Part shown: piece by piece, positions 1 through 19,734 of the stretch
Layout of the letters: every line of letters begins with the position of its first letter
How positions within the stretch are numbered: position 1 is the first letter of the stretch
Source: Gammaproteobacteria bacterium
GTDB lineage: Bacteria; Pseudomonadota; Gammaproteobacteria; SZUA-140
Assembly: GCA_015491865.1 (NCBI GenBank)
Contig: WFVD01000016.1
Location: 1-51,985, forward strand
Direction: 5' to 3'
DNA: 51,985 bases
Position numbers and translations under genes: made by a program
Notes under the pieces: model-generated
What the model saw: only the letters and a program-made list of their open reading frames with translations
Databases searched by the model: none
What the model was told of the DNA's origin: nothing

Positions 1-129
1 GCAACAGTAAGTTTAATGCTGGCGCTTGAGGAAGAGTTTGATATCGAATTCCCTGATTCAATGCTGAGCCGAAAAACTTTTGGAAGCATTGAGTCGATTG
101 TTGATGCCATTGAAGAGTTGCAGGGCTAA
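1..129 (+). CDS. Acyl carrier protein, C-terminal part (cut by window start)
   Basis: An open frame runs from base 1 to a TAA at 127-129 and encodes 42 residues. They match the second half of an acyl carrier protein: an amphipathic helix LMLALEEEFDIEF, a short loop PDSML, and a last helix SIESIVDAIEEL. The phosphopantetheine serine (DSL-type motif) would lie just upstream and is not in the window. The acyl-CoA dehydrogenase-like gene follows 42 bases later and the amino acid:carrier-protein ligase after that, so this is the likely carrier for the aminoacyl group made by that ligase. The family call is firm; the partner is inferred from position. Confidence 0.85.
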   Translation, partial: ATVSLMLALEEEFDIEFPDSMLSRKTFGSIESIVDAIEELQG

Positions 130-171
130 GCCGCTATGGTAAGCATGTAAAAGCCAGAGAAGGGGCCAGAA

Positions 172-1359
172 ATGCAGGATCATGAGTCGCTAAACTCAAC
201 AGCATTCGTTGCGTTGATTTCTGAAGTCAGGCGAGTTGGCAAGGAAATTGTCGCCCCTCATGCGGCTGATGTTGATGAGAAATCGCGTTTCCCAGGCGAA
301 AGCATCGACGCGCTAAGAAAATTAAAGCTCCTAAGCGCTTATGTCCCAGAAAAAAATGGTGGCATGGGGCTGAACGTGGTGCAAGTTGCGAAAATCTGTG
401 AGGTGCTGGGGCACTACTGCGGCTCCACCGCGATGATCTATGCGATGCACAAGATCCAGGTGGCCTGTCTTGTTCACCATGCTAGCGGGTCAAATTACGC
501 CAAGTTGTATCTTGATAAATTAGCTTCAGAACAAAGGCTTATTGCCTCCGCAACAACTGAAATCGGCATCGGTGGCGATTTGAGGTCGAGCATTTGTGCG
601 GTTGAGAGTAACGGAGCCTCTTTTGATCTGGTTAAAAAAGCACCTGTAATCTCATATGGTGTTGATGCGGATGACTTGATGGTAACCGCACGCCGTCACC
701 CTGAGGCTGCGAAAAGTGACCAGGTTCATGTCCTGCTGCATAAAGAGCAATATAGCCTGGAGCAAATTTCAGATTGGGATGCGTTGGGTTTCAGAGGCAC
801 CTGTAGTGCCGGTTTCATCGTGACAGCTAAGGGTAATGATGAGCAAATCCTCCCCGTTCCATTTGCGGATATCTTAAGTCAAACCATGCACCCTTTTGCC
901 CATATCACCTGGAGTGCGCTGTGGTTAGGGATTGCGGCTGATGCTGTTAACATGGCGCGTAAATTTGTTAAAAATGAGGCTAAACGCAATCTTGAAATGC
1001 CACCTATATCGGCAATCAGGCTAGGTGAAGTTGAGAGTGTGCTGCAAACGATGCGTAATAATATTTCTGTGACTGCAGCAGAGTATCAGAGTATGTTGCT
1101 CAAGAATGATGCGGAGGCCTTTACAAATTTTGGATTTGGAATCCGTATGAATAATTTGAAGGTGACAAGTTCGCAATTAATTGTTGATATTGTTGGGAAG
1201 GCGATGCTGATATGCGGGATTTCGAGCTATCGGAACGATTCAGCGTTCAGCTTGTGCCGCCATCTGCGTGATGCTTATGGCGCAGCGCTCATGGTCAATA
1301 ATGATCGCATATTACTGCATAATTCTACTTTGCTTCTGATGCACAAAGGAGATGAGTAA
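172..1359 (+). CDS. Acyl-CoA dehydrogenase-like flavoprotein
   Basis: The 395-residue protein has the acyl-CoA dehydrogenase layout: a helical N-terminal domain to about residue 115, a middle beta domain containing ATTEIGIGGD, and a C-terminal four-helix domain. The family oxidises acyl thioesters with FAD and can act on carrier-protein-bound substrates. The start ATG follows a GA-rich stretch (AGAAGGGG). The next gene begins at the base after this stop, with its Shine-Dalgarno AAAGGA inside this gene, so the two are translationally coupled. Sitting between a carrier protein and an aminoacyl:carrier-protein ligase, it probably oxidises a carrier-bound aminoacyl or glyceryl thioester rather than a fatty acyl-CoA. 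That substrate is inference. Confidence 0.85.
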   Translation: MQDHESLNSTAFVALISEVRRVGKEIVAPHAADVDEKSRFPGESIDALRKLKLLSAYVPEKNGGMGLNVVQVAKICEVLGHYCGSTAMIYAMHKIQVACLVHHASGSNYAKLYLDKLASEQRLIASATTEIGIGGDLRSSICAVESNGASFDLVKKAPVISYGVDADDLMVTARRHPEAAKSDQVHVLLHKEQYSLEQISDWDALGFRGTCSAGFIVTAKGNDEQILPVPFADILSQTMHPFAHITWSALWLGIAADAVNMARKFVKNEAKRNLEMPPISAIRLGEVESVLQTMRNNISVTAAEYQSMLLKNDAEAFTNFGFGIRMNNLKVTSSQLIVDIVGKAMLICGISSYRNDSAFSLCRHLRDAYGAALMVNNDRILLHNSTLLLMHKGDE

Positions 1360-2289
1360 GTGTGCTTGTCTCACGCTGTTTTGGATGATGACTACAGGCA
1401 ATATCAGCAAGCGTTATTAGGCGCAGGGTTATTGGTGTCGTCAGGTGTGCCTGGTGTCTATGGGCTGAGCGGCCTGTTTGAGGGCATTGTAGAGGCGTTC
1501 GAGCGATATGTGACGCGCATGGGTCAGCATCTGACGCCAGAGGTCATTCGATTCCCCCCGCTGTTGAGCAGGGAAACCTACCTTCGGACCGATCACATTG
1601 AGACATTCCCTGATTTAATGGGGTCTGTGCACTCCTTTGTGGGAAACGAGGGGGATCATCTGAGATTAGTTCAAAAAAAAGAGAATGGCGAGGCGTGGAC
1701 TGAAAACCTGGAGCCGACCGATGTCATGCTGGTGCCCGCCGCGTGTTACCCCTTATACCCGGCAGCGGCGAATACTACCCTGCCTGAAGAGGGGCGGGTG
1801 GTCGATTTGCGGGCATTTGTTTTTCGCCACGAACCCTCTCCAGACCCTGCACGCATGCAGACCTTCAGGCAGCGTGAGTATGTGACGCTTGGCACCGCTG
1901 AACAGGCGCTCGCGCACAGAGACTACTGGTTAAAACGTGGTGAAGAGCTGTTGGGTGCGCTTGGCCTTGATGTGAAGCCGGTGATTGCAAACGACCCCTT
2001 TTTTGGCCGTGGCGGACGTGTGATGGCGGCAACACAGAAAGAGCAGGCGCTTAAATATGAGCTTGTCGCCCCTATCGCCTCGACAGAAAAACTTACCGCG
2101 ATCTCCTCCAGTAACTGTCATCTGGACCATTTCGGGCGTGAATTTAATATCAAAACGCCAGACGGCCAGTTTGCTCATACGGCTTGTATCGGTTTTGGTC
2201 TGGAGCGAATCACCCTCGCGCTGCTAAAAAAACACGGTTTTGATCCGGCTACCTGGCCCTCTGAAACGCGCTCGCTGCTGGAAATCTGA
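1360..2289 (+). CDS. Amino acid--[acyl-carrier-protein] ligase
   Basis: This 309-residue protein has the catalytic core of a class II (seryl-type) aminoacyl-tRNA synthetase but no tRNA-binding arm. Motif 2 is seen as FRHEPS (155-160) and motif 3 as GFGLERI (278-284). Cys129, Glu173 and Cys276 fall where the zinc ligands Cys131/Glu176/Cys279 of the Bradyrhizobium Bll0957 enzyme lie. Known members activate small amino acids (glycine, alanine) with ATP and load them onto the phosphopantetheine arm of a carrier protein. The start is a GTG directly after the upstream TAA. The stop overlaps the next ATG (TGATG). The carrier at the window start is the expected acceptor; the amino acid cannot be read from sequence. 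Confidence 0.88.
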   Translation: MCLSHAVLDDDYRQYQQALLGAGLLVSSGVPGVYGLSGLFEGIVEAFERYVTRMGQHLTPEVIRFPPLLSRETYLRTDHIETFPDLMGSVHSFVGNEGDHLRLVQKKENGEAWTENLEPTDVMLVPAACYPLYPAAANTTLPEEGRVVDLRAFVFRHEPSPDPARMQTFRQREYVTLGTAEQALAHRDYWLKRGEELLGALGLDVKPVIANDPFFGRGGRVMAATQKEQALKYELVAPIASTEKLTAISSSNCHLDHFGREFNIKTPDGQFAHTACIGFGLERITLALLKKHGFDPATWPSETRSLLEI

Positions 2290-3260
2290 TGGAGCGGCTA
2301 CTGGCACTGGATCCTGCGTCATACACCAGGCACCGTATTCATACACAGGAGCGCGACTGGGCTGAGACGAATTGCTATGTTGATATCTGGATAGAGTTGT
2401 TGCATGCGCTGGGGCACGAGCCACTCGCGGTGATGCCGTTTACATTGGCGATCGATTTTGAGGGCGACCAATGGACCTTTTTTAAGCCCCCGCTCGCCGA
2501 TATTTATGAGCTCTACGGTATCGATGTGCAGGAGCTGGCGCTCTGGCAGCCGCTCGTTCAGCATGTTGAGCAGCAGGTAGCGCTCGGCAAACCGGTGCTG
2601 GTTGAGCTGGATTCTTACTACCTGCCCGATACCGCGGGGATGGCCTATCGGCTTGCCCATGTCAAATCGACGGTTGCCGTTGTTGAGATTGATGTGGCGC
2701 AGCGGCATCTTGGCTATTTTCATGGGCAGGGCTACTACCACCTGAATGGCGATGATTTTGCGAGCGTGTTTCGTCTGTGCGACAAGCCGGATCCGGCGAT
2801 ATTACCCCCCTATGTTGAAATAGCTAAACAGCGGCGAAAAAATAAGCTCGATGATGCGCAGACGCTGGAGATTTCACTGTTGCTGCTGCGAAAACAGCTA
2901 AAGCTACTGCCTGAAGCCAACCCTTTTTATGCTTTTAAAGATAAGCTGGGAAAAGATCTCGACTGGCTAATGAAGCAGGATATCGAAACCTTCCATCAAT
3001 ACTCATTCGCGACTTTGAGGCAGTTTGGTGCCTGCTATGAGTTGGCCGCGACCTACCTCGACTGGCTGGCCGGACAGGGAGAGGCGGGGCTTGCAGAGGC
3101 CAGGCAATCTATCAAATCTATTTCTGAGACGGCAAAGTCGTATCAGTTTCAGCTCGCAAGGGCGATGAGCCGTAAGAGACCGCTAGACCTTGCGCCGATT
3201 GATGCGATGGGGGATCATTGGGCATCAGGGATGGAGAGGCTGGTCGCTAAATACCAGTAG
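2289..3260 (+). CDS. DUF1839 family protein (possible BtrH-like aminoacyl transferase)
   Basis: This 323-residue soluble protein of the DUF1839 family has no signal peptide or membrane segment. The N-terminal half resembles papain-like/BtrH-type folds: Cys29 in TNCYVD, a strand PVLVELDSYYLP (102-113), and His124. The C-terminal half (about 185-320) is helical. It overlaps the aminoacyl:carrier-protein ligase start-to-stop, and DUF1839 genes are known companions of that ligase. BtrH-type enzymes move an aminoacyl group from a carrier protein to an acceptor, so this protein may transfer the amino acid to a sugar or other acceptor. The family is recognised with good confidence; the chemistry is inference. 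Confidence 0.75.
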   Translation: MERLLALDPASYTRHRIHTQERDWAETNCYVDIWIELLHALGHEPLAVMPFTLAIDFEGDQWTFFKPPLADIYELYGIDVQELALWQPLVQHVEQQVALGKPVLVELDSYYLPDTAGMAYRLAHVKSTVAVVEIDVAQRHLGYFHGQGYYHLNGDDFASVFRLCDKPDPAILPPYVEIAKQRRKNKLDDAQTLEISLLLLRKQLKLLPEANPFYAFKDKLGKDLDWLMKQDIETFHQYSFATLRQFGACYELAATYLDWLAGQGEAGLAEARQSIKSISETAKSYQFQLARAMSRKRPLDLAPIDAMGDHWASGMERLVAKYQ

Positions 3261-3380
3261 TCATTTTTACAACTATTACTAGCTTTAGATATGTACTGGT
3301 TTGAATGTGATTTGCATAAGAGGGGATGAGAGAAACGCGTATAGATTAGCGTAGCTGAGTAAATTAAAAGACCGCACTAA

Positions 3381-5870
3381 ATGATTCAACTTGTCGATGA
3401 CTGGCACCTGATCGAAACGGCCCCGGATCTCTTTCTGGAGCCAGCAAACCTTGTGAGCGACGATTTTGACTGGATTCCTGCCAGTGTTCCCGGCACAGTA
3501 GCGCAAGCGATGTCGGCGGCGGGACGTTGGTCGCTCGGTGATCAATTTGATTTTGATAGTCGGGATTACTGGTATAAAACAGAGTTTAAGCTGCTGGAGA
3601 GTGAGCAGCAGAGGAGTTTGCTCCATTTAGATGGGCTGGCGACGCTTTGCGAAGTGTGGGTGAATGGCCGGCGAGTGGTTGAGTCTGATAATATGTTTCT
3701 AGCTCATCAGGTCGATATTTCTGATTTCGTTCAGGCTGACAACAGCCTCTATTTATGTTTCCGCTCATTGACAGCGGCGCTTGCTCAGCGCAGAGCGCGT
3801 CCACGCTGGAAAACCGGGCTGGTTGATCGCCAGCAGTTGCGCTGGTTTCGAACGACATTGCTCGGTCGGATAGCGGGCTGGACACCGCCGGTCGCGCCTG
3901 TTGGGCCATGGAAGGCGATCTCGATTAGCCAGCAGCTCACCCCGTTAAATGTCAATGTTATGCCAGTACTCCATGGCAAGCGAGGCGTGGTTCAGTTTTC
4001 ATGTGATTTAAACCATGTTGATGGTGAGCCAGTAACCGCGGTTCTGTCGGTAAATGGTACGGAAGTCACGCTTGATCTGAAAGAACTAGATTCTGGAAGC
4101 CATGTTTATGGTGAGCTTCATCTCGACAATGTTACACCCTGGCTGCCACATACGCATGGCACCCCCCAGCTTTATGAAGCTTCTCTTAGCATTAAGACGC
4201 CGACCACAGCGCGACTACACCCGCTGGCACCTGTTGGGTTTAAAAAGGTCGCTATAGATAGAAGCAATAATAATTTTAGTATTGTTGTTAATGATAAAAA
4301 GATTTTCTGCAGGGGGGCATGCTGGACCGTAAATGATATCGTTTCACTGATGGGTGATCTGCGTTCACTTGAGCGTACCTTACTGTTAATGCGGGATGCG
4401 GGTGCCAATATGATCCGCATCGGCGGCACGATGGTCTATGAACAGGATCGCTTTTATCAGCTATGTGACGAGTTGGGTATGATGGTCTGGCAGGACTTTA
4501 TGTTTGCCAATATGGACTACCCTGTCGAGGATGAAGATTTTAACGCATCAATTATCTCCGAAGCTCGTCAACTCCTTACGCGGCTGCGTAAACATGTGTG
4601 TGTCACCATTTACTGTGGTAACAGTGAGGTTGAGCAGCAGGTAGCGATGCTGGGTATGCCGGCAGAGATCGGGAGTAATGATTTTTTCAGATCGCAGTTG
4701 GCCGCGCTCTGCCGAGAGCACCACCCTGCCGTACCCTATCTCACCTCAACCCCCTCTGGTGGTGATCTCCCTTTTCATACCGATGTTGGTGTTACACACT
4801 ATTATGGGGTTGGGGCTTACCGGCTGCCAGTCAGTGATGTGCGGCAACATCAGGTGAAGTTCTCGCCGGAGTGTCTCGGTTTTTCCAATATGCCTGTTGC
4901 ACAGACGCGCAATGGTCTGTTTGATGGCAAGATCCCTGTGATTCACCATCCAAAATGGAAGGAGAGAGTCCCGCGAGATAGCGGTGCCGGCTGGGACTTT
5001 GAGGATATTCGAGACCACTATTTAGCGCAGCGGTTTTTGGTCAACCCGGTAAGATTGCGCAGTGAGGATAACGCGTTCTATCTGGCGTTGAGTGAAATCA
5101 TTAGCGGCGAGGTGATGGCGCAGGTTTACGCCGAATGGCGCAGTAAGCAGAGCTGTTGTGCGGGTGCCCTCGTCTGGTTTTTAAAAGATCTCTGGCCGGG
5201 CGCTGGCTGGGGGGTGATCGATAGTCGTGGCCTGCCCAAGGCGGTTTATTACTACTTAAAGCGTAGTTGGCAGCCTGTAAATGTTGCTATTACAGATGAG
5301 TCGTTGAATGGGCTGCATATCCATATCAATAATGAAACCGAGCGCGAACTGAGTGGTGAGCTGGAAGTTTTATTGCTGAATGAATTTAGCACCGTTATTG
5401 CCAGCAAAAAAGTAGCGGTGGTTATCGTCCCAGGTTCAATAGCGCGGGTGAGGCTAGATCAGCTACTCGCCATGTTTCTGGATACCACTTACACCTACCG
5501 TTTTGGCCCATCAAAACATGTGGTTGTCGCGGCGCGCTTAACAGACTCCGCGGGCAGTGAGCTCGGTTGTGCTCATTACTTTCCTGATGATTCGTTACCG
5601 CGCATCGAAGATCGCGTGAAGCTCGAGGCCGAAATGGCCGCTAGTGGGGATGATGGCTATCTATTAAGATTGTTATGCGATAAATCTCTCTATGCAGTGA
5701 ATATCGATATTCCAGGCTTTCTGCCGGACGAAAACTTTTTTCATTTACTGCCAGGTGTGGAAAAAACGGTCAGAATATTCAGAGATAATCACCATGTGAA
5801 AAAAATCCGAGGCTATGTTGGTGCTGTCAATCTACGTGACGATATCAGAATTAAAGTTTCTGCTGATTAA
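3381..5870 (+). CDS. Glycoside hydrolase family 2 (beta-mannosidase-like)
   Basis: The 829-residue protein shows the GH2 order: a jelly-roll sugar-binding domain (about 1-180) with DYWYKTEF, an immunoglobulin-like domain (about 185-285), and a TIM barrel (about 295-600) followed by beta-rich C-terminal domains. The barrel has NMIRIGG (343-349), CDELGMMVWQDFMFAN (362-377) and YCGNSE with the expected acid/base Glu416. SPECLGF contains the likely nucleophile Glu497. No signal peptide is visible, so a cytoplasmic role in trimming or editing a glycan or lipid-linked intermediate is plausible. It stands 120 bases after the DUF1839 gene on the same strand. The sugar specificity is not determined. 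Confidence 0.85.
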   Translation: MIQLVDDWHLIETAPDLFLEPANLVSDDFDWIPASVPGTVAQAMSAAGRWSLGDQFDFDSRDYWYKTEFKLLESEQQRSLLHLDGLATLCEVWVNGRRVVESDNMFLAHQVDISDFVQADNSLYLCFRSLTAALAQRRARPRWKTGLVDRQQLRWFRTTLLGRIAGWTPPVAPVGPWKAISISQQLTPLNVNVMPVLHGKRGVVQFSCDLNHVDGEPVTAVLSVNGTEVTLDLKELDSGSHVYGELHLDNVTPWLPHTHGTPQLYEASLSIKTPTTARLHPLAPVGFKKVAIDRSNNNFSIVVNDKKIFCRGACWTVNDIVSLMGDLRSLERTLLLMRDAGANMIRIGGTMVYEQDRFYQLCDELGMMVWQDFMFANMDYPVEDEDFNASIISEARQLLTRLRKHVCVTIYCGNSEVEQQVAMLGMPAEIGSNDFFRSQLAALCREHHPAVPYLTSTPSGGDLPFHTDVGVTHYYGVGAYRLPVSDVRQHQVKFSPECLGFSNMPVAQTRNGLFDGKIPVIHHPKWKERVPRDSGAGWDFEDIRDHYLAQRFLVNPVRLRSEDNAFYLALSEIISGEVMAQVYAEWRSKQSCCAGALVWFLKDLWPGAGWGVIDSRGLPKAVYYYLKRSWQPVNVAITDESLNGLHIHINNETERELSGELEVLLLNEFSTVIASKKVAVVIVPGSIARVRLDQLLAMFLDTTYTYRFGPSKHVVVAARLTDSAGSELGCAHYFPDDSLPRIEDRVKLEAEMAASGDDGYLLRLLCDKSLYAVNIDIPGFLPDENFFHLLPGVEKTVRIFRDNHHVKKIRGYVGAVNLRDDIRIKVSAD

Positions 5871-5916: not shown

Positions 5917-7761
5917 ATGCCTGACATAGCCCTGAACGAGCCGTTAGAGGTTGAGCTAGCGCTTGAGTCAGTCGTGCGCACACCACTCTATTTTGGCCCA
6001 GACGAAAAACAGCTGCTGGGCTGGTTGCATCAGAGCCACTTACCATCACAGTATGATATTGGTGTCGTTATCTCTCCCCCTTTAGGAACGGAATATCTGA
6101 GCGCATATCGTGCGATGCGTTATGCGGCTGACTATTTTGCACTTGCAGGGATACCGGCCTTTCGTTTTGACTACCACGGTACTGGGGACTCTTCAGGTTT
6201 TAACGATGATGGTAATCGTCTTGAGGCGTGGCTGTGGAGTATCGAACAGGCAAATAGCGAACTCAAACGGCTGACGGGGTGTTCAAGAACGGGGATTCTG
6301 GGTTTGCGGATGGGGGCAACACTGGCCTCATTGGCATCGGAAAAGATCGCATTCGATTTTTTAGTGCTCTGGGCTGCGCTTGAAAGCGGTCGAAAATATC
6401 TGCGTGAAATAAAAGCGATTCAGATGACCGGTATCGCTCAGGATAGCGAAGGGGAGTCGGGCCTGCTTGAGGCGGGTGGAATGGCCTACTGGGCTGAGAC
6501 AGAAGCGGCGATAGGCAAGATTGAGCTGACACAAATAGTGCCGCAGGCCTTACGTACACTTGTTATTCCGCGGGATGACCTTCGTACGAACAGCAGGGTC
6601 TGCGATGCATGGCGAGCAGCAGGGGTGAATGTAGAGCAGTTAGCGTATAGCGGCTCTGCTGAGATGCTTGTGGATGTGGGAGAGACTACGGTTCCCCATG
6701 AGAGCATTATCAAAGTGACGGAATGGGTCAAAGAAAATATCGATGCGCCAGTTAAAGAGCAACATGACGTTTTACAGGTGGACATTACGACAAGCGCATT
6801 AGTTCGGGCAGGCTCCACGACAGGCTGTGGTGTAAAAGAGTCATTTATTAAATTTGGAAAAGATCGTGACTGTTTCGCAATTCTATCTGAACCGACTATC
6901 TCTACTAGTCATGCTGGCTTACCGGTGATAGTGATTGTTAACTCTGGTGCTAACCATAGAGTTGGACCGGGTCGGCTATATGTAACGATCGCCAGGGAGC
7001 TCGCCCATCTGGGTTTTCGTAGTTTAAGAATAGATATACCCGGGCTAGGCGATAGCGTGGTTAATGAGCGTAGTCGGGAAAACAGAGACTATATCAGTAA
7101 TTCAAGCGATGTTATTCATGATGCGATCAAGGCGCTGGGTGAGGATTATCGAGACTATCGATATGTGATGACAGGCTTGTGTTCAGGCGCATACGCTTCC
7201 TTTCATGCGGCGCTTGATCTCAAAGATGTGAATATTGCGGAAGCTGTTTTAATTAATCCACTGACCTTTTATTGGCATGAAGGTATGGCGCTTGAAGGCA
7301 CATCGATCGAGAACTTTGGTTACTGGAACTGGTACAGAAAAGCTGCGAGAGATATGGAAAGCTGGAAGAAGCTGCTCAGAGGAAGAGCGAATTATAGTAC
7401 GCTTGTGAAGACAATCAGAAATAGAGTTCGTGTTGTCGTTTCAGCGAAAACAAGGAGAATTCGGAGAAAAGGTTATGCGCGCAGCAAGTCTCTCTCTGAA
7501 GTTGCTGAGGGAGATTTAAGTCAGGATCTTGCGAAAATCACATCGAACAGTAGGCATCTCACCTTTGTGCTGGCGAGCAGTGATCCGGGGTATGATATTT
7601 TGATGACGGATGGGGGTAAAATGGCTCGCAGGTTATTAACCTCTGGAAAAATGTCGCTTTACATGATAGAAGATAGCGACCATACTTTTTCAAAATATAA
7701 ACCTCGATCTCACGCCATCAACACAATCGTGAACCATATTGTTAATCGATATAAAAAATGA
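5917..7761 (+). CDS. Double alpha/beta-hydrolase protein 1, exosortase-locus type
   Basis: The 614-residue protein contains two alpha/beta-hydrolase domains. In the first (about 35-275) FRFDYHGTGDSSG is canonical, but the nucleophile elbow reads GLRMG (129-133), with Arg131 where serine should be, as in exosortase-system hydrolase families. In the second (about 305-610) the elbow is GLCSG (420-424), giving Cys422 as nucleophile, with Asp556 and His589 (SDHTFS) completing a Cys-Asp-His triad. A basic segment around 490-525 lies in the lid region. It ends in an ATGA overlap with the methyltransferase gene. A homologue occurs at 11711-13453. A thioesterase or acyltransferase acting on carrier-bound groups is inferred. 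Confidence 0.8.
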   Translation: MPDIALNEPLEVELALESVVRTPLYFGPDEKQLLGWLHQSHLPSQYDIGVVISPPLGTEYLSAYRAMRYAADYFALAGIPAFRFDYHGTGDSSGFNDDGNRLEAWLWSIEQANSELKRLTGCSRTGILGLRMGATLASLASEKIAFDFLVLWAALESGRKYLREIKAIQMTGIAQDSEGESGLLEAGGMAYWAETEAAIGKIELTQIVPQALRTLVIPRDDLRTNSRVCDAWRAAGVNVEQLAYSGSAEMLVDVGETTVPHESIIKVTEWVKENIDAPVKEQHDVLQVDITTSALVRAGSTTGCGVKESFIKFGKDRDCFAILSEPTISTSHAGLPVIVIVNSGANHRVGPGRLYVTIARELAHLGFRSLRIDIPGLGDSVVNERSRENRDYISNSSDVIHDAIKALGEDYRDYRYVMTGLCSGAYASFHAALDLKDVNIAEAVLINPLTFYWHEGMALEGTSIENFGYWNWYRKAARDMESWKKLLRGRANYSTLVKTIRNRVRVVVSAKTRRIRRKGYARSKSLSEVAEGDLSQDLAKITSNSRHLTFVLASSDPGYDILMTDGGKMARRLLTSGKMSLYMIEDSDHTFSKYKPRSHAINTIVNHIVNRYKK

Positions 7762-8528
7762 TGTTTGATTCTGTTAATAAAGCGCTCTATACGAGCAGCG
7801 ATGGTGTTGCCTCGTACGTCAGTACAACGCTTCAGCCGCCAGAAGTATCTATTCTGGTCGACTATAAAGATGCTTTTTTTGGGAAAAAAATCCTGGATAT
7901 CGGTTGTGGGGCCGGGCGGACAAGCCACTATTTCCGGAATTTCACAGATCAATATATCGGCGTTGATTACTCAGAACCGATGGTGGATGTTTGTAAAGAT
8001 AAGTACCCTGATCTGGTGTTTATGCATTGTGATGCTAGAGACCTGAGTTGTTTTTCAGAGAATGAATTCGATTTTGTCATGTTTTCATATAACGGACTGG
8101 ACTATATTAGTCATGATGAACGTTTGCACGTACTAAAGGAGATAAAACGGGTTTTAAAAACAGGCGGCACATTTGTTTTTTCTTCTCACAACCGTCATTA
8201 CAATAATATTCAGATGGAACCTTCGCTACTATTATCGCTTAACCCGGTTCGCTTGATTAGAAATATCTTCTCGTATTATCAGCAACTAAACAACCGAAGA
8301 AGGTTATTGCCAAAAGAGGTGACTAGTGAACAGTATGCTATCTATAACGATAGTGGTAATAACTTTGGCCTGCTGACCTACTACATTGACAAAGAAAGCC
8401 AAACTAAACAGTTATCAGCGGCTGGCTTTGAGTTGTTAGAGATGTTTCAGTTAAATGGTCAAAGCCTGTCTGCCGACGAAGATGATTCAAATAGCGGTTG
8501 GATTTATTATGTATCGAAATCCATATGA
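7758..8528 (+). CDS. Class I SAM-dependent methyltransferase
   Basis: The 256-residue protein has the SAM-binding motif ILDIGCGAGRTSHYF near residue 45, an acidic residue after IGVDYSEP, and DFVMFSYNGLDYI for the later Rossmann strands. This is methyltransferase-11 type. It starts inside the stop of the upstream hydrolase (ATGA), so the two are co-translated; a second ATG three bases later is an alternative start. In the polysaccharide locus it would methylate a sugar or a carrier-bound acyl group. An O-methyltransferase is also part of FkbG-H-I-J-K type pathways, but no sequence link to FkbG is claimed. Confidence 0.85.
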   Translation: MMFDSVNKALYTSSDGVASYVSTTLQPPEVSILVDYKDAFFGKKILDIGCGAGRTSHYFRNFTDQYIGVDYSEPMVDVCKDKYPDLVFMHCDARDLSCFSENEFDFVMFSYNGLDYISHDERLHVLKEIKRVLKTGGTFVFSSHNRHYNNIQMEPSLLLSLNPVRLIRNIFSYYQQLNNRRRLLPKEVTSEQYAIYNDSGNNFGLLTYYIDKESQTKQLSAAGFELLEMFQLNGQSLSADEDDSNSGWIYYVSKSI

Positions 8529-10046: not shown

Positions 10047-11714
10047 ATGTCGCTGAGTTTTTTAGAGGCAAACAAGATCGTGGTGGCTGGTAATAACCTG
10101 CCTACTGAAAATTTTGTATTGGCAGCTTCAGGGCAGACAGAGAAGCTAACTCTTTTTATTAAGGCGGCCAGTATTCAACAGGGGTTTAACAGTAGCTATA
10201 AGGCATTACCCTTTAATACACTGCAGCAATATATTATTTCGCCAGCGACGACAGATGCCCATCATGTTTTTATTCTTTTTCCGTGGGACGTGTTTCCTGA
10301 TATGGACTGGCGTTCGGGTGTGACGACAAGAGAGGTAAATAAAGGGGTCGTGTTTCAGGAGGCCGATGACTTCATTGAAAAGCTCGCTCGATTTCCATCT
10401 AAATCACTTCTCTACATCCCGGCAGCGGCAGCGCCTGCAACCTCTACTTATCAGTTTTTTATGGCGCTTGCGCACCACCTACAGGCATCATTTTTAAAAG
10501 CCGGGGCGACGCTATTGCCAGCTGATTTTTTCTCTTTGGCGAGCTATCTTTCAAGCGGTAGTCCGTTTGCCGGAAAGTTTCTCTCTCCAATTGCTGATGC
10601 AGTTGTTAGTGCGCTTCCACGGCAATCTACAGTGGCTAAGAAAGTACTTGTAACGGACTTCGATAATGTTATGTGGCGCGGCGTGGTCAGCGAGGATGGT
10701 ATCGATGCGATTCAATGTTCGAATGAAAGTGCCGGGTATATTCACTATATATATCAGTCTTACCTGCTTAAACTAAAATCGCAAGGTGTCTTGATTGCAG
10801 GAGTGACCAGGAACGACCATGAAGGTGCTCTTTTGCCTTTTCGTCAGGGTGTAACGCTATTTAAAGAGCATGATTTTGTCTCCGTGCATGCAAGCTACCA
10901 ATCTAAGTCAGCACAAATTAAAGCGCTAAGCAGTAATCTGAATGTTTCCATGGATAGCATAGTTTTTGTAGATGATAACTTGCTGGAGCTAGAGGAGGTC
11001 AGGCGAGCACTGCCTGCTGTCGAGTGTCGGATGTTTCCGGGAAGCTGTGAAGATGCGCCCGGTTTTTTCGCTTATTTACAACAGCAATTTAGTTTCATGC
11101 AGATCACCGATGAAGATAGGCAGCGTACTGAACTCTACAAAACTCGCTTTAAGGCGGCGGAGATCAGTTATTTGCCCGGAGCAGACATCACAGATTATCT
11201 GCGATCCCTGGAGATGGTATTGACGGTTACAAAATGTGATGCTTCGAACTATAGTCGCCCCCTGCAACTTATCAACAAAGCAAACCAGTTTAGTTTAAAT
11301 GGTTTGAGAGTTAGCGAAGATCAGCTGAGGGATCTTATCGCCTGTGGTGCGACGCTATACTCCTGTTCTCTGGCTGATAAGTTTGGTGATCATGGGCAGA
11401 TCAGTAGCATTCTCGTTTCTGAGCAGGGGGTCGTGAGTTATTTTGTCATCTCCTGCCGGGTCTTCCAGAGAAAAGTTGAATATGCGGTGTTATTGCTGCT
11501 GGCTGATGTTATCCCTGTTGATACATTGATGTTTGATTATTATAAAACGGATAAAAATATTCCCTTTCAGATGTTTATTAGTGATGCCGGGTTTTCACTT
11601 AATGGCAGTGAACTGCTTCTTGATCTGAGAGCATTTGTTAATAAAAACCAGACGTATCTTGAATTGTTTGATATTGATAGCGCTCTGTTGCGTATTCCGG
11701 AAGATTCACCATGA
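10047..11714 (+). CDS. FkbH-like HAD-IIIC protein (probable glyceryl loading onto ACP)
   Basis: The 555-residue protein has an N-terminal domain (about 1-190, SGNH-like region of FkbH proteins) and a HAD core starting VLVTDFDNVMW (200-210), with Asp204/Asp206 as the catalytic DxD pair and the FkbH-type tryptophan. Further HAD motifs are VTRNDHEGA and IVFVDDNLLELEEVR. The GNAT-like C-terminal part includes LINKANQFSLNG, a family hallmark. FkbH-type enzymes dephosphorylate 1,3-bisphosphoglycerate and transfer the glyceryl group to a carrier thiol. The carrier gene lies directly upstream and the stop overlaps the next gene (ATGA). The usual Thr in DLDNTLW is Val here. Confidence 0.87.
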   Translation: MSLSFLEANKIVVAGNNLPTENFVLAASGQTEKLTLFIKAASIQQGFNSSYKALPFNTLQQYIISPATTDAHHVFILFPWDVFPDMDWRSGVTTREVNKGVVFQEADDFIEKLARFPSKSLLYIPAAAAPATSTYQFFMALAHHLQASFLKAGATLLPADFFSLASYLSSGSPFAGKFLSPIADAVVSALPRQSTVAKKVLVTDFDNVMWRGVVSEDGIDAIQCSNESAGYIHYIYQSYLLKLKSQGVLIAGVTRNDHEGALLPFRQGVTLFKEHDFVSVHASYQSKSAQIKALSSNLNVSMDSIVFVDDNLLELEEVRRALPAVECRMFPGSCEDAPGFFAYLQQQFSFMQITDEDRQRTELYKTRFKAAEISYLPGADITDYLRSLEMVLTVTKCDASNYSRPLQLINKANQFSLNGLRVSEDQLRDLIACGATLYSCSLADKFGDHGQISSILVSEQGVVSYFVISCRVFQRKVEYAVLLLLADVIPVDTLMFDYYKTDKNIPFQMFISDAGFSLNGSELLLDLRAFVNKNQTYLELFDIDSALLRIPEDSP

Positions 11715-13453
11715 GTGTCATCCGAAAGCCATTCTGGTTAGAGGTTAAGCAACATGAGCGGCTATTTTGCTGGCTTCATTACCCTGAAGAAAAGCTGAAA
11801 AAAACAGCGATTATTATTATTGGTGCAGTTGGGCCTGAATATTCACACTGTTTCCGGACTATTCGCCTGCTGGCTGATGAACTGGCTGAAGCGGGTTATG
11901 CAACGCTAAGATATGATCCGGCTGGTATGGGGAATTCTACTGGAAGGCTCGAAGATGCTGGTATCTGGAATGTATGGCTGAGCTCCCCATGTCGACTGAC
12001 ATTATTATTAAAATCACTCGGTTTTGATCATGTTGCTTTAATCGGTTTTAGGTCGGGGTCTCTTATTCTCGGAGAACACATAAAACGGAACCCAGTTGAT
12101 AGTGCAATGTTTTTCTACCCTTACTTACAGGGGCGAGCTTATTATCGAGATATGCAGATGCTTGATTTAGGGTTGAATCTTTATAGTGATAGTGATGCAA
12201 CCATTGAGGGTGGAGGTTATCCGGTAACTGAAGATATTAAAATAGCACTGGCAGAGATCAACCTGGCATCGCAGCCGTTTGATCAACTCAGCAATGCATT
12301 AGTGATAGGTGATGGTGGGAATATAGCCACTTCAAAGTTTGCACAGCATCTTGTCAGTGGTGGTGTGACGGTTGAAACATACGCTATTGATGGGTTGGCC
12401 GCAATGACTCGCCCTGCTGCTCTGTCAGTGGCGCCGGAGTCGGCTATTCGTGCCCTCTGCACCTGGATGTTGAAGCACGACACATTGGCTGAGTTTCATG
12501 TTGACTTTGCACCGAAATTATATGAGCCACTGCGGACAGAAACCTGCACAGAGGCTGTTTTTCAGTTAGCTAATGAACGGAGCGTATTTGGGATTCTGAC
12601 ATCGCCATTAAATAGCTCGGCGAACACGATTGTTTTGCTTGTGAATGCTGGATCGGGGCACCATGCCGGGCCAAACAGACTGCATGTAGATCTGGCGAGA
12701 GCGCTTGCTGAAGATGGCGTTGCCTCTTTACGGATCGATCTTTCGAATCTCGGTGACAGCGTAAATGTGTATAACAGAGAGTCCTATCACCCTTATCCAC
12801 CTAATGCAGCTGGTGATATTGGGGATGTTTTAAATTACCTGGAGCAGGCGTTCGAGTATAAAAATATAGTACTGTGCGGACTCTGTTCTGGAGCGCACAA
12901 CGTTTTTCATGCAGCACTTAGGGGGAGGGGTGCTCATTTAAGCAAAGTGATACTGATTAACCCATTGACCTTTTACTGGACCCCTGGACAGTCGATATTG
13001 GCTCCCGAAGAGAATCAGAGTGAAATTGATGAGGCGTACTATCAGGGGCAGGCTTATGATTATAGGAAATGGTTGGCATTGTTAGTCAACCCGGCCAAGG
13101 TCATTAGTGTTCTGAAATTCATAATGCGCTTCGTTCAGCGAAAATTAAGCCGCCTGTTCTCGCTGTTTTCTGAATGGCTGGGTTTTGGTAGTTTAGATCG
13201 GATGAACAGCGATCTCCTGCAGCTGCTTGAGGCGGGGGTTCACATATCACTCATTACATCAGAAGGTGACCCTGGAGAAAAAATAATGCTGGCCAATGTT
13301 TCGCGAGCAGTTGGAAAGTTCAAGAGGAGAGGGGCGCTGCTCTGTTTAACAATCGCTGGTGCAGACCACACCTTTTCTTCACGCGCCTCACGTAAAAGAC
13401 TGGTCAATGAATTAGTTCGGGAGGTGACTAAGGGGGGTAGCATCACTCAATAA
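11711..13453 (+). CDS. Double alpha/beta-hydrolase protein 2, exosortase-locus type
   Basis: This 580-residue homologue of the 5917-7761 protein has the same two-domain layout. Domain 1 has LRYDPAGMGNSTG and the elbow GFRSG (112-116), with Arg114 replacing the serine. Domain 2 has the elbow GLCSG (390-394) with Cys392, plus Asp520 (EGDPGEKIM) and His553 (ADHTFSS). The segments INPLTFYW and GAGSGHHAGPNRLHVD-like stretches are shared with protein 1. Translation is coupled to the FkbH-like gene by ATGA, which ties this copy to the glyceryl-carrier branch. Whether domain 1 is catalytically dead or a docking module is unknown. Confidence 0.8.
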   Translation: MSVIRKPFWLEVKQHERLFCWLHYPEEKLKKTAIIIIGAVGPEYSHCFRTIRLLADELAEAGYATLRYDPAGMGNSTGRLEDAGIWNVWLSSPCRLTLLLKSLGFDHVALIGFRSGSLILGEHIKRNPVDSAMFFYPYLQGRAYYRDMQMLDLGLNLYSDSDATIEGGGYPVTEDIKIALAEINLASQPFDQLSNALVIGDGGNIATSKFAQHLVSGGVTVETYAIDGLAAMTRPAALSVAPESAIRALCTWMLKHDTLAEFHVDFAPKLYEPLRTETCTEAVFQLANERSVFGILTSPLNSSANTIVLLVNAGSGHHAGPNRLHVDLARALAEDGVASLRIDLSNLGDSVNVYNRESYHPYPPNAAGDIGDVLNYLEQAFEYKNIVLCGLCSGAHNVFHAALRGRGAHLSKVILINPLTFYWTPGQSILAPEENQSEIDEAYYQGQAYDYRKWLALLVNPAKVISVLKFIMRFVQRKLSRLFSLFSEWLGFGSLDRMNSDLLQLLEAGVHISLITSEGDPGEKIMLANVSRAVGKFKRRGALLCLTIAGADHTFSSRASRKRLVNELVREVTKGGSITQ

Positions 13454-14789: not shown

Positions 14790-15584
14790 ATGTTTATCAG
14801 TATATTGCGACGAATGAAAATACTGTTTCTTGCTTTGGTGATGTTTACTGTCGGCTGTTCAAAGGATCTTGAGAGTTTATCAATAGAGGAGCAGGCGGTT
14901 TATCAGCCGGATCGTTATGCCGATGACAAAGACAGGGATAAGAGCAGGAAGCCGCTGGAGGTGCTGAAATTCTCCGGTGTTAAGCCAGGCGATACTGTTA
15001 TTGATCTGCTTGGTGGTGGCGGCTATTACAGCGAGCTATTCAATTATATTGTTGGTGATGAGGGGAAGGTGTATCTGCAGAACAACTCATTATTTTTACG
15101 TTTCTCTACAGAAGAATTAGAGCAACGTCTGGCAAATGGGCGTTTGAAGAATGTGGTGCGCCTGGATAGTGAGTTTGCTGATATGCAGCTCCCAGCCAAT
15201 GTGGACCTGATTTTTATCGGTTTGAGTTATCATGATATTTACGTGCCGCGTAAAGACCCTGTTATTACAGCAAAAAGGGATGAGTTCTTTAGTCAAATCC
15301 GGGATGCGCTGAAACCGGGTGGGGCGCTGCTCATCATCGATCATGCCGCGGAGCCTGGAACGGGCAAGGATACTACGGCAAAGCTGCACCGTATTGATGA
15401 AGCGTGGGCGAAGCAGGATATTGAAAGTGCAGGTTTTCGATTTGAAAAGGGGCTGGATGTGCTAAGAAACCCGAATGACAATTATCAGCTGGATATCTGG
15501 AAGAAAGGGATCATGAGGAAGACAGATCGTTTTATTCATTTATATCGCAAGCCGGATCTGAACCAGGGTGCAGAAGGCGAATGA
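14790..15584 (+). CDS. Lipoprotein with SAM-methyltransferase fold
   Basis: The 264-residue protein starts with a lipoprotein signal: basic residues, a hydrophobic run ILFLALVMFTV, then the lipobox cysteine in TVGCSK. After this comes a class I methyltransferase domain with GDTVIDLLGGGGYYSELF and KPGGALLIIDHAAEPGTG, resembling the predicted-methyltransferase group of periplasmic proteins. An AAGAGGG ribosome site precedes the ATG; an internal ATG at 14814 would give a shorter signal peptide. The predicted location outside the cytoplasm is odd for a SAM enzyme. Its stop overlaps the sulfotransferase start (ATGA). Confidence 0.75.
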   Translation: MFISILRRMKILFLALVMFTVGCSKDLESLSIEEQAVYQPDRYADDKDRDKSRKPLEVLKFSGVKPGDTVIDLLGGGGYYSELFNYIVGDEGKVYLQNNSLFLRFSTEELEQRLANGRLKNVVRLDSEFADMQLPANVDLIFIGLSYHDIYVPRKDPVITAKRDEFFSQIRDALKPGGALLIIDHAAEPGTGKDTTAKLHRIDEAWAKQDIESAGFRFEKGLDVLRNPNDNYQLDIWKKGIMRKTDRFIHLYRKPDLNQGAEGE

Positions 15585-16396
15585 GGCGGAACGCCATCAT
15601 TGTTGGGCCGCCGCGTTCAGGCACTAGCATGACTGCCATGTTTTTTAAGAATAGTGGCTATTTTGTAACTGAAAATGAGGTAGACCAGCTACAACCTGCC
15701 AATGAATTTAATCCCCATGGTTTCTGGGAGGCTGAAGCTTTAAAGCAGTGTAACCGTGAAATCCTCAATGCTGCCGGTTTTGAGTTCAACAATACATGGA
15801 TGTATCCGGCCATCACTCAACAGCAGGCAGATAAAATCTCAACGCTACCGCATGCTGACCATCACAGGAAATTGATTGAAGATTTTAATGGGAACGCCCC
15901 GTGGTTATGGAAAGACCCCTGCCTGTCATACACGATTGGTTACTGGTGGCCATTACTGGAGCCGCATAATGCGAGGGTCCTGTTATTGAAGCGTGATCCT
16001 GAGGAGATTTATCAGAGCTTTCTTCGTCTGAAGTGGCTTGAGCTAAATAAGGATGATAAAGAGGCCGCACTTCAGCGAATTATACATCATATGGAGGCGG
16101 CACAGAGTGCAGTAGAGCAGTTTGATATTCCCCATGTGACGGTCGACTATGCAGATTATGCGAACGCTGCTGATACGACTGCCAGGAAAATAGGCGATTT
16201 TTTTGAGCTAGAACTATCTGCTCATGATCTGGGTTATGATAAAAAGCTAAAAACCAGTGGGTACCGTGGTCGATATTTACGCCTGTTAGATAGTGCTATT
16301 GGAATGGTCCCAGATGGGTTACGTAAGCGACTCAAACAGATGCTACCCGTTGCTCTTTTGAAGGTTATTTTTCCTCACCGTTATTTAAAAAAATAA
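15581..16396 (+). CDS. Sulfotransferase family protein
   Basis: The 271-residue protein opens with IIVGPPRSGTSMTAMFF, the 5'-phosphosulfate loop that binds PAPS. The 3'-phosphate region is expected around VLLLKRDPEEIYQSFLRLKW (about 132-151). The short motif WLWKDPCLSYT matches bacterial sulfotransferases. No signal peptide is present. It is translationally coupled to the lipoprotein methyltransferase. In this locus it would sulfate a sugar of the exopolysaccharide or its lipid-linked repeat unit; the acceptor is unknown. Confidence 0.8.
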   Translation: MRRNAIIVGPPRSGTSMTAMFFKNSGYFVTENEVDQLQPANEFNPHGFWEAEALKQCNREILNAAGFEFNNTWMYPAITQQQADKISTLPHADHHRKLIEDFNGNAPWLWKDPCLSYTIGYWWPLLEPHNARVLLLKRDPEEIYQSFLRLKWLELNKDDKEAALQRIIHHMEAAQSAVEQFDIPHVTVDYADYANAADTTARKIGDFFELELSAHDLGYDKKLKTSGYRGRYLRLLDSAIGMVPDGLRKRLKQMLPVALLKVIFPHRYLKK

Positions 16397-16455
16397 CGGT
16401 GGCAATCTCGACACGAGATAAACCGTTGAGTTAAGCGATAACTTTGCCGCTTAAC
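16395..16455 (+). other. Two consecutive hairpins after the sulfotransferase gene
   Basis: Directly at the sulfotransferase stop, AACGGT (16395-16400) pairs with ACCGTT (16422-16427) and encloses a second stem ATCTCG-ACA-CGAGAT (16405-16419). Three bases later GTTAAGCG (16430-16437) pairs with CGCTTAAC (16448-16455). No T-run follows either, so these are not typical intrinsic terminators. They could stabilise the 3' end or separate expression of the next gene. Confidence 0.5.
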
Positions 16456-16592
16456 ACCTCGTCGTGACAATTAAGTCAGAGGTTCTTTAAGTTAAAAGTA
16501 CTGCTAGTAGTGTTACCTGGCGGCTCCTTAGTTTGTTGTGGTTTGCATGATATGTTTATTTGGAAAATAGAGATGTTGGTGATAGTAAATCT

Positions 16593-17726
16593 ATGAAAAT
16601 ACTTTTTTTCTTATCAGCTTTTTTTTGCAGTTTTAGCTACTTTATCTACCCTTTTCTCTTAATGATCACGCCGCGGCGTAATAGTCAGGGGGGTGATACG
16701 TTAGTGGATGCTCGGCCAATAGTTAGTCTAATTGTTACGGCGCATAATGAAGAGGCGAGGATTCGAGAGAAGCTAGAAAATACTCTTGCAATAGCCTATC
16801 CAGGTGAACTGCTTGAGATCATTATTGCATCCGATTGCTCTACAGATAAAACAGATGAGATTGTAGCCTCTTATAGCCAGCGTGGTGTTCGCCTGGTTCG
16901 TGCTGATGAACGGAAAGGCAAGGAGTATGCGCAGTTATGTGCAATCCGAGAGGCTAAAGGCGATATTCTGGTCTTTTCGGATGTGGCCACACAGATTGAG
17001 CCTGATGCATTGAATAAACTGGTACGCCACTTTAACGACCCTTCTGTTGGGGCCGTTTCGAGCGAAGACCGTTTTGTCAGTCAGGACGGTACCATTGCGG
17101 GAGAGGGGGCGTATGTTAAATATGAGATGTGGCTGCGGCGACTGGAGTCGCAGCGAGCTGGCCTGGTGGGGTTGAGCGGTTCTTTTTTTGCGGCCAGAAA
17201 AGAGATCTGTGATGAGTGGGATATCGCCTCCCCAAGTGACTTCAATACTGCACTGAACTGTGCAAAGCGGGGGCTGGTAGCGATCTCTGTGCCCGATGTG
17301 GTTGGGATCTATAGTGATGTAAAATCTCCTGCTCTAGAATATCGACGGAAGCTACGAACCATCATTCGTGGTATGACTGCTATTTCGCGCCATCTCGAGG
17401 TGCTGAATCCACTAAAAATGGGGCTGTTTTCATTTCAGGTGTGGAGCCATAAAATTTTGCGATGGGCAGTGCCGTGGTTTATGGCGTTACTGCTTTTTAC
17501 CTCTGCTCTCTTAAGTGCTCAACACTGGCTGTATGCTGCTGTACTGGTGGCGCAGCTCGGGTTTTATGCGCTGGTGGTGGTGGGTTATCTCTCGCAAGAT
17601 TTGCGCTCACATACGTTGATTAAGATCCCTTATTTTTTCGTTCAGGTGAATCTCGCCATTGCGTCGGCAACTGTTATGTTTTTACGCGGTGAGCGGATGA
17701 CGACCTGGACACCGTCGAAGCGCTAA
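16593..17726 (+). CDS. Family 2 glycosyltransferase, membrane-bound
   Basis: This 377-residue protein has an N-terminal membrane helix, a GT-A domain and about three C-terminal helices. The GT2 signatures are VSLIVTAHNEEARIREKLEN (Rossmann start), IIIASDCSTDKTDE, a DxD-like FSDVATQ, SSEDRF, and RRKLRTIIRGM as the Q/RxxRW-like element. It would transfer a sugar from a nucleotide donor to a lipid-linked or growing glycan at the cytoplasmic face. The frame is open to a TTG at 16560, but the ATG at 16593 gives the natural hydrophobic N terminus. The stop shares a base with the next start (TAATG). Confidence 0.88.
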   Translation: MKILFFLSAFFCSFSYFIYPFLLMITPRRNSQGGDTLVDARPIVSLIVTAHNEEARIREKLENTLAIAYPGELLEIIIASDCSTDKTDEIVASYSQRGVRLVRADERKGKEYAQLCAIREAKGDILVFSDVATQIEPDALNKLVRHFNDPSVGAVSSEDRFVSQDGTIAGEGAYVKYEMWLRRLESQRAGLVGLSGSFFAARKEICDEWDIASPSDFNTALNCAKRGLVAISVPDVVGIYSDVKSPALEYRRKLRTIIRGMTAISRHLEVLNPLKMGLFSFQVWSHKILRWAVPWFMALLLFTSALLSAQHWLYAAVLVAQLGFYALVVVGYLSQDLRSHTLIKIPYFFVQVNLAIASATVMFLRGERMTTWTPSKR

Positions 17727-18868
17727 TGTTTTATCAACTGCCACCTGTCGGTCATCAGATCGGTTGCCGTTCTCAAGCGGCTTCTCCGCAGGGAGTCGCT
17801 GGATATTTCGCATCGGATTGCTATTTTTTTAACTCTGGTGCGGCTTCACTGGCCACTGCTGTGCTGGCGACTGTTCAGCAAACTGGCTTAAAGGATCCTG
17901 AAGTGCTGCTTCCGGCCTACGCATGCCCTGAACTGGTGAGTGCCGTTCTCTGGGCAGGAGCCAGGCCTGTTCTTGTTGATTTTGCTGTTGATCGCCCGTG
18001 GATGGCACTGGATGAGATCTCAAAAAAACTGACGCCACGCACCTGCGCCATTATTGCGGTGAGCCTGTTCGGTATACCGGAGCGCATAGGGGAGATAAAA
18101 GCGCTGTTAAGTGGGCGCGAAATTTACCTGATTGAAGATAGCGCACAGGCTTTTCCTGAGAAAACCTCAATGGAGGTCCTGCAGAGCGACCTTAAGATCT
18201 ACAGTTTTGGGCGTGGCAAGCCCGTTAGTGTGCTCGGGGGGGGGGCAGTGGTGGTGGAGCATGGGGCGCTGAGTGATCGGATTGCCCATATTCACCATGA
18301 GGCAGCGCGTAGCGACTCCCGGCCGTGGTTACGCAGGTTAAAAATAGCCCTCTATAATCGCCTGATCTCTCCTCGCCTCTACTGGCTGCCCAATAGTGTG
18401 CCGTTTATTCAGCTTGGCGCTACCGTGTATAAACCCCTGCAAAAGATAGAGAAGATGGGTGAATTTGAGATGGGGTTGCTTGCCCAGAATATTGAGCGTT
18501 ACTGGTCGCGTGGAGAGGAAATTCAGGAGCTTCTAATGGCAGGAATCGCAGCTTCTGAGTGTAAGAAAGTGATGGATCTTGCGGCGGTCAGTTGCAAGGA
18601 GAGGCAGCCGAGACTGCTTCGTTATCCGTTGTTGGCAAAAAGCCCGGCGGTGCGTGATGAATTGTGTGACAAGCTTAATCGAGAAGGGATAGGCGCTTCC
18701 AGAATGTACCCCGCAATATTGCCGAAGGTTAGAGATATGGTTGCCGTATTTGATCACTCTGATGAAGCCCCGAATGCAGCAGCATTTTCTCAAAGAATAT
18801 TGACGCTGCCTGTGCATAGTGGGGTAACTAAAGAGGTTGTTAATAAGATGCTAAAGATAGTCCTTTAG
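17726..18868 (+). CDS. DegT/DnrJ/EryC1/StrS-family PLP enzyme
   Basis: The 380-residue fold-type I PLP protein has the sugar aminotransferase layout: FFNSGAASLATAVLA near residue 34, VLLPAYACPELVSAVLWAGARPVLVD-type strands, LIEDSAQAF with Asp138 to hold the pyridine nitrogen, and IYSFGRGKP with Lys165 as the Schiff-base lysine. DegT members aminate keto-sugars; this one is divergent and its sugar is unknown. It is translationally coupled to the glycosyltransferase. An amino sugar made here could be the acceptor for the acyl or aminoacyl groups activated upstream; this is inference. Confidence 0.8.
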   Translation: MFYQLPPVGHQIGCRSQAASPQGVAGYFASDCYFFNSGAASLATAVLATVQQTGLKDPEVLLPAYACPELVSAVLWAGARPVLVDFAVDRPWMALDEISKKLTPRTCAIIAVSLFGIPERIGEIKALLSGREIYLIEDSAQAFPEKTSMEVLQSDLKIYSFGRGKPVSVLGGGAVVVEHGALSDRIAHIHHEAARSDSRPWLRRLKIALYNRLISPRLYWLPNSVPFIQLGATVYKPLQKIEKMGEFEMGLLAQNIERYWSRGEEIQELLMAGIAASECKKVMDLAAVSCKERQPRLLRYPLLAKSPAVRDELCDKLNREGIGASRMYPAILPKVRDMVAVFDHSDEAPNAAAFSQRILTLPVHSGVTKEVVNKMLKIVL

Positions 18869-19617: not shown

Positions 19618-19646
19618 AGCCTCAGCCATTGGTTGGGGCTTTTTTT
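19618..19646 (+). terminator. Rho-independent terminator after the fn3 lipoprotein gene
   Basis: AGCCTCAGCC and GGTTGGGGCT form a 10-bp stem (with G-T pairs) around a three-base loop ATT, followed directly by a run of Ts. It lies 25 bases after the fn3 gene stop and before the ATPase start, so the ATPase needs its own promoter or read-through. Confidence 0.85.
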
Positions 19647-19734
19647 CTGGTTTTCCCATAGAATAGGCGCTAGTTTTGATGGCTGGTTTTTCTCGGCTGG
19701 TTGCATCACTACGCGTTTATGTTATGAGGGAGCT

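Follow-up and report, generated by a model that had tools for sequence, protein, structure and literature searches.

Organization of the DUF1839 operon

The window analysed here is a 51,985-nucleotide stretch of a gammaproteobacterial genome (assembly GCA_015491865.1, contig WFVD01000016.1), comprising contig C16 from its first base in a genome of 2.54 Mb that is 99.99% complete. The first 7.8 kb of the window hold six genes, all on the + strand, that form an operon around a protein of the family DUF1839. A preliminary description of this sequence listed five of them in order on one strand, namely a carrier protein, an acyl-CoA dehydrogenase (ACAD)-like enzyme, an amino acid:[carrier protein] ligase, DUF1839 and a glycoside hydrolase family 2 (GH2) enzyme, and both the coordinates and the family models agree with it. 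The same description ended the cluster at position 5870, and this boundary has to be moved, as a double alpha/beta hydrolase (5917-7761) also belongs to the operon. The six genes, and a methyltransferase gene (7758-8528) that overlaps the last of them by 4 bases, are as follows.

1..129, + strand: carrier protein (acyl or peptidyl carrier protein-like, ACP/PCP-like), C-terminal 42 residues; PRK07081, 60 bits
172..1359, + strand: non-canonical flavoenzyme with the acyl-CoA dehydrogenase fold; PF02771 N-domain, 60 bits
1360..2289, + strand: amino acid:[carrier protein] ligase, class II seryl-tRNA-synthetase-like core; NF005479, 427 bits
2289..3260, + strand: DUF1839, papain-like N-domain and helical C-domain; PF08893, 401 bits
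3381..5870, + strand: GH2 (beta-mannosidase-like) enzyme; PF22666, 88 bits (cut-off 27)
5917..7761, + strand: double alpha/beta hydrolase, sixth operon member; relatives in TIGR03101 and TIGR03100
7758..8528, + strand: class I S-adenosylmethionine (SAM) methyltransferase, optional accessory; PF13649

The reading frames of the flavoenzyme and the ligase abut (1359/1360) and those of the ligase and DUF1839 share one base (2289), which bears out the earlier remark that three reading frames touch or overlap. A scan for promoters and terminators returned matches at chance level.

Conservation of the operon across bacterial genomes

A genome-wide search with a DUF1839 alignment yielded 80 named loci. 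They represent about ten phyla, and some lie in isolates of Pseudomonadota, Bacillota, Myxococcota and Chloroflexota; Pleionea sediminis (L036) and Rhizobacter sp. Root1238 (L035), for instance, carry ligase and carrier genes next to DUF1839. The flavoenzyme is encoded near DUF1839 at 76 of these loci, the ligase, the carrier and GH2 at 72 each, and the hydrolase at 49, while a methyltransferase lies near the operon at 6. Since the same partners recur throughout this survey, the clustering of these genes cannot be attributed to chance. On plasmids of Azospirillum and Mycetohabitans the genes annotated as ACP, ACAD, ligase, DUF1839, GH2 and alpha/beta hydrolase follow each other in identical order, and the median gaps between successive operon genes, where these are adjacent, are 3, -1, 22 and -4 nt. 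No further family is a constant partner among the 80 loci; the commonest additional genes, each present at no more than 10 loci, encode glycosyltransferases, AMP-binding ligases, phosphopantetheinyl transferases, sugar transferases and deacetylases. On plasmid p3 of Rhizobium sp. NZLR1 (L004) a solitary DUF1839 gene is located amid ParB and conjugal transfer genes, with the operon partners absent within 9 kb.

The distribution of DUF1839 is sparse, with the gene found in 20 of 397 sampled genomes of the phylum and in 2 of 9 other genomes of the genus, and its phylogeny interleaves phyla. Taken together, the sparse occurrence and the shape of the tree fit horizontal spread of the operon.

Fold and predicted activity of DUF1839

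DUF1839 matches PF08893 over residues 9-318 with 401 bits, against a cut-off of 22.5. A previous classification of papain-like proteins included this family, with acyl-CoA-dependent glycan processing guessed from its gene context (PMC10318531). The AlphaFold2 model of the protein (78 homologues, predicted local distance difference test score, pLDDT, 95.9) matches CcbD over essentially its full length (Z 19.7, 281 residues, root mean square deviation, rmsd, 3.5), followed by AziU2/U3 (Z 18.0) and CtaG (Z 17.4). Overall, the rows matching CcbD, AziU and CtaG span Z 16.4-19.7 with 269-287 aligned residues and rmsd 3.4-4.0, the Foldseek E values for these fold matches range from 6e-9 to 3e-5, and the next structures are unrelated, at Z 7.3. 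A link to solved structures at the level of sequence was also sought, and profile search found none. As the similarity to CcbD and CtaG does not extend to sequence, we describe DUF1839 as working like these enzymes and stop short of classing it with their family.

Cys29, His124 and His145 are invariant in 81 of 81 DUF1839 sequences, and Thr128 is conserved in 80 of 81. Thr128 and His145 suggest that the positions of the canonical His and Asp are swapped, and the putative C-(T/S)-H site agrees with that reported in PMC10318531. Based on its modelled structure, we predict that DUF1839 is a carrier-dependent aminoacyl transferase; transfer of a carrier-bound aminoacyl group, plausibly to a sugar, is the best reading of the fold. 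This is in line with the preliminary description, in which an amino acid was loaded on the carrier and then transferred, and the fold shared with CcbD and CtaG speaks for it.

The carrier protein and its probable loading enzymes

The contig begins just after the phosphopantetheine serine of the carrier, which is why this attachment residue is missing from the window. The 42 residues that remain score 60 bits with PRK07081, below the full-length cut-off of 72, because the protein is a fragment. The close relative L012 encodes a whole carrier, with ...DLYHAGLTSLATVGLML... (GLTSLATV), and full-length relatives bear the motif GLTSL/GMTSH.

The ligase exceeds the cut-off of the curated NF005479 (PRK07080) model (427 bits against 357), and the structures of Bll0957 match it at E about 1e-111. 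Its zinc ligands, equivalent to C131, E176 and C279 of Bll0957, are C129 (73 of 73 homologues), E173 (70 of 73, with Asp in the other 3) and C276 (73 of 73). At 309 amino acids, the protein aligns solely to the C-terminal core of archaeal seryl-tRNA synthetase and is devoid of a tRNA-binding domain. Loading of an amino acid onto the holo-carrier has been shown for relatives and, by analogy, would be the activity of the window ligase as well. Where Bll0957 has Ala281, 73 of 73 ligase homologues have glycine (Gly278); this numbering assumes that the crystallised chain of Bll0957 bears a 20-residue tag. Marsavelski et al. reportedly found in 2014 that Ala281 restricts Bll0957 to glycine and that the A281G mutant gains activity on larger amino acids. 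The glycine at this position therefore suggests a cargo larger than glycine, for which serine or alanine is a fair guess.

Five loci (L015, L017, L037, L042 and L043), four of them from metagenome assemblies, are missing the ligase and retain ACP, ACAD, DUF1839 and GH2, and no ligase match was obtained elsewhere in their genomes. They occupy about four places on the DUF1839 tree, some beside ligase-bearing sisters, and the ligase therefore appears to have been lost repeatedly. L017 and L043 encode, within 9 kb, stand-alone amino-acid adenylation (A) domains that score 350 and 353 bits with TIGR01733 (cut-off 317) and are 57% identical to each other. Their pocket codes (DNFFIAMVC in L017 and DNFFLAMVC in L043), assigned by aligning the domains with a reference stretch, carry the Asp of alpha-amino-acid pockets. 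AMP-binding genes were found at 3 of the 5 ligase-free loci compared with 6 of the 75 others (Fisher P 0.009), a comparison that is somewhat circular in that search seeds came from four ligase-free loci. FkbH was rejected as a substitute loader, being present in just 3 of the 5 ligase-free genomes. These sequences suggest that an A domain takes over the loading step in L017 and L043 and that the loader is swappable, and such a replacement would lend independent support to an amino acid as the cargo of the carrier. Aminoacyl-tRNA synthetase (aaRS)-type ligases and A domains of nonribosomal peptide synthetases (NRPS) would then be apparently interchangeable loaders for one kind of carrier.

The GH2 enzyme, the double hydrolase and neighboring genes

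The GH2 enzyme keeps both catalytic glutamates, the nucleophile E497 in 66 of 66 homologues and the acid/base E416 in 61 of 66. Inspection by eye revealed no signal peptide at the N-terminus of any operon protein, GH2 included, and the steps encoded by the operon are therefore probably cytoplasmic. The double hydrolase remains below the cut-offs of TIGR03101 (61 bits) and TIGR03100 (119 bits). Arg occupies the nucleophile elbow of the N-terminal half, both in this protein and in its homologues, and the C-terminal half carries Cys422, Asp556 and His589.

Further along the window (10047-13453), the gene of an FkbH-domain protein overlaps that of a second double hydrolase, and in Reinekea (L043) a matching pair stands after the operon, at 15411-18747. 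This pair may constitute a second carrier-loading branch of glyceryl type. A tyrosine recombinase that by eye resembles integron integrases is encoded at 49629-50639.

Comparison with known carrier-dependent systems

CcbD and its homologue LmbD are part of lincosamide synthetase, which couples an amino acid held on a carrier with an amino sugar (gene requirement: PMC4351081), and CcbD structures of 2023-2025 in the PDB are titled as complexes with methylthiolincosamide and the PCP domain. The operon is similar to this system (LmbC/CcbC A domain, carrier, LmbD/CcbD) in its stand-alone activator and stand-alone or loosely attached carrier, and an enzyme of the CcbD fold with a Cys nucleophile occurs in both. 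In contrast to lincosamide synthetase, which activates with an A domain, the operon has a class II aaRS-like ligase as activator (L017 and L043 are probable exceptions), counterparts of LmbE, LmbF and LmbV are not found among its recurrent partners, catalytic residues appear swapped, and ACAD-fold, GH2 and double-hydrolase partners are added. CtaG, the other enzyme with which we compare DUF1839, passes a carrier-bound acyl group to an amine; it is the peptidyl transferase proposed for closthioamide biosynthesis (PMC6772006).

Bll0957-type ligases of Bradyrhizobium and Agrobacterium (PDB 3mey and others) share with the operon ligase their family, the zinc site, the missing tRNA-binding domain and a carrier gene in the cluster. 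They differ in the residue at Ala281, which is Gly in the operon ligase, and the operon has GH2 as a constant and the hydrolase as a frequent partner. BtrH (PF14399), the butirosin acyltransferase that moves a carrier-bound acyl group to an aminoglycoside, also combines a papain-like N-domain with a C-terminal region, and its hhalign comparison with DUF1839 gave a weak match that is collinear over 245 columns (probability 10%, E 0.003). Elsewhere in the genome to which the window belongs, on contig C15 (L098), the gene of a BtrH_N protein (341 aa) adjoins seemingly ketosynthase-like genes. Finally, the XrtA-associated TIGR03098/TIGR03100/TIGR03101 cassettes have homologous hydrolases and a parallel logic of ligase, ACP and hydrolases. 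Unlike in those cassettes, the hydrolase of the operon is below the TIGRFAM cut-offs, the ligase is of another kind and an exosortase was not detected. L014 has a similar cassette directly upstream of the aaRS-type operon (L014:384-4394), which encodes an AMP-ligase, an ACP, an ACAD-like protein and an alpha/beta hydrolase, and thus carries two analogous carrier cassettes next to each other.

Proposed pathway

On balance, and with considerable reserve, we consider it probable that the six genes specify a self-contained pathway of aminoacyl transfer that is based on a carrier protein and runs in the cytoplasm, with a sugar or glycoside as its most likely acceptor. In such a pathway the ligase would adenylate a small amino acid and load it onto the holo-carrier, and the ACAD-fold flavoenzyme would act on the carrier-bound aminoacyl group, probably by oxidation. 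DUF1839 would then take the acyl group onto Cys29 and pass it to an amine or hydroxyl of the acceptor, much as CcbD and CtaG act on carrier-bound substrates. A sugar or glycoside is the most likely acceptor because an enzyme with intact catalytic residues, GH2, is a constant partner. The double hydrolase, with its Cys nucleophile, would edit, release or further transfer the acyl group. The phosphopantetheinyl transferase genes found near several DUF1839 loci are in favor of this pathway.

Several points weigh against it. The roles of all operon members are assigned from sequence, models and analogy, and the sugar acceptor is suggested by GH2 and by a modest proximity of glycosyltransferases. 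Profile search with DUF1839 retrieved none of the chains of CcbD, CtaG and AziU (E <= 10), and the active site of DUF1839 appears rearranged, Thr128 and His145 occupying the places of His and Asp (PMC10318531). Five loci are without a ligase, and in only two of them is there a clear replacement by an A domain. AziU2/U3 has the same fold and is not known to be a simple aminoacyl transferase; the fold therefore does not fix the reaction of DUF1839.

Association with polysaccharide genes

The preliminary description placed the operon in an exosortase polysaccharide locus. As it had noted, an XrtA-type ATPase is encoded in the window near the operon genes:

19633-20730: XrtA-type ATPase; TIGR03015, 354 bits (cut-off 324.5)

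Neither PF09721 nor TIGR02602 detected an exosortase in the 99.99%-complete genome, making this a near-complete genome with an XrtA-type ATPase and no detectable exosortase. The suggested survey for co-occurrence of ligase, DUF1839 and ACP with this ATPase found it at none of the 80 loci in flanks of up to 10 kb, and above cut-off in 7 of 49 host genomes; only in Reinekea does a weaker homologue lie about 18 kb from the operon. The assignment to an exosortase locus is thus not upheld.

The relationship to other polysaccharide genes is less clear-cut. Of 22 genomes, 5 (G131, G104, G141, G098 and G103) have, among the matches listed, a GT4-type glycosyltransferase gene (PF13692) no more than 20 kb from DUF1839, compared with an expectation of at most about 1.1 genomes (Poisson P about 0.005, a rough test on a hand tally of the strongest listed matches). 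This expectation assumes that the roughly 158 matches listed are spread uniformly over about 128 Mb, and windows of 40 kb. The other 17 genomes have no GT4-type gene within this distance among the matches listed. A tally of Pfam domains in neighbors and controls gave 4 against at most 2 glycosyltransferases per 140 proteins, a small sample, and a distance test with PF02397 gave no clear signal. The operon is modestly associated with sugar-polymer genes and is not bound to them.

These observations bear on the reading given in the preliminary description, in which the pathway decorates an exported polysaccharide. The aminoacyl group would then be placed on one of the polymer's nucleotide sugars or on a repeat unit that is linked to a lipid. 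The genes of a GT2 glycosyltransferase, a sulfotransferase, a DegT aminotransferase and an acyltransferase, which together with the XrtA-type ATPase lie within 20 kb in the window, are in agreement with this, as are the GT4 excess and the recurrence of Bac_transf, polysaccharide deacetylase and UDP-glucose dehydrogenase at a few loci. The missing exosortase, the flanks free of XrtA ATPase, the 17 genomes with no nearby GT4-type gene listed and the small difference in the neighbor tally all count against it, and neither a glycosyltransferase nor a transporter is a constant partner, so we regard decoration of an exported polymer as rather unlikely. Attachment to a sugar survives from the earlier proposal as a reasoned hypothesis based on the CcbD/CtaG fold, and the tie to an exported exosortase polymer does not.

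The flavoenzyme and the nature of the product

The flavoenzyme certainly has the ACAD fold: its AlphaFold2 model (pLDDT 93.0) matches acyl-CoA dehydrogenases at Z about 41 over 371-375 residues. It matches flavin monooxygenases at Z about 40, and structure alone does not tell a dehydrogenase from a monooxygenase at these scores. Further matches are TcsD, an acyl-ACP dehydrogenase (Z 41.0), and ColB1, which dehydrogenates a carrier-tethered cysteine (Z 39.6). At the position of the catalytic Glu of short-chain acyl-CoA dehydrogenase this residue is missing, and Asn377 is invariant there in 75 of 75 homologues, in which His93 and His244 are also invariant. The canonical flavin adenine dinucleotide (FAD) motifs RxxFG and QxxGGxG are missing as well, the alignment consensus being EARKxPG and LLICGxxGY.

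A second alternative is centered on this enzyme. The operon could be a precursor factory, in which the flavoenzyme converts a carrier-held amino acid to a dehydro-, hydroxy- or N-oxidised form, DUF1839 or the Cys hydrolase releases this unusual amino acid or attaches it to a small-molecule natural product, and GH2 takes off a sugar that served as protection. No partner of DUF1839 is more constant than the flavoenzyme, the matches to TcsD and ColB1 are compatible with such chemistry, and a logic of protection and deprotection is known from butirosin. With neither the catalytic Glu nor canonical FAD motifs in the protein, standard dehydrogenation is unsupported, and no downstream NRPS or polyketide synthase partner recurs; we consider this alternative unlikely. 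That the operon attaches amino acids to protein or lipid, with GH2 unrelated to acyl transfer, is improbable, since GH2 with intact catalytic residues near 72 of 80 DUF1839 genes is too constant for a bystander, even if the fold of DUF1839 leaves the acceptor undefined and the acceptor proposed for CtaG is the amine of a peptide on a carrier (PMC6772006).

Implications

Returning to the carrier-based transfer of an aminoacyl group to a sugar or glycoside, a more specific form of this proposal is a tentative possibility that we put forward with some doubt. The operon may represent an undescribed class of pathway that occurs in about ten phyla and does not depend on the export of polysaccharides. 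In analogy to lincosamide assembly, its aaRS-derived ligase, free carrier, non-canonical flavoenzyme and CcbD-like transferase would build an oxidised aminoacyl-glycoside small molecule, and an NRPS A domain could replace the loader. The function predicted for DUF1839 from its fold and the definition of a six-gene operon go beyond the classification in PMC10318531. As late as 2022, a biological role had yet to be given for amino acid:[carrier protein] ligases (PMC9437257). With six genes in a fixed partnership, a function that its fold suggests for DUF1839 and a candidate class of acceptor, this role would become testable with a few purified proteins.

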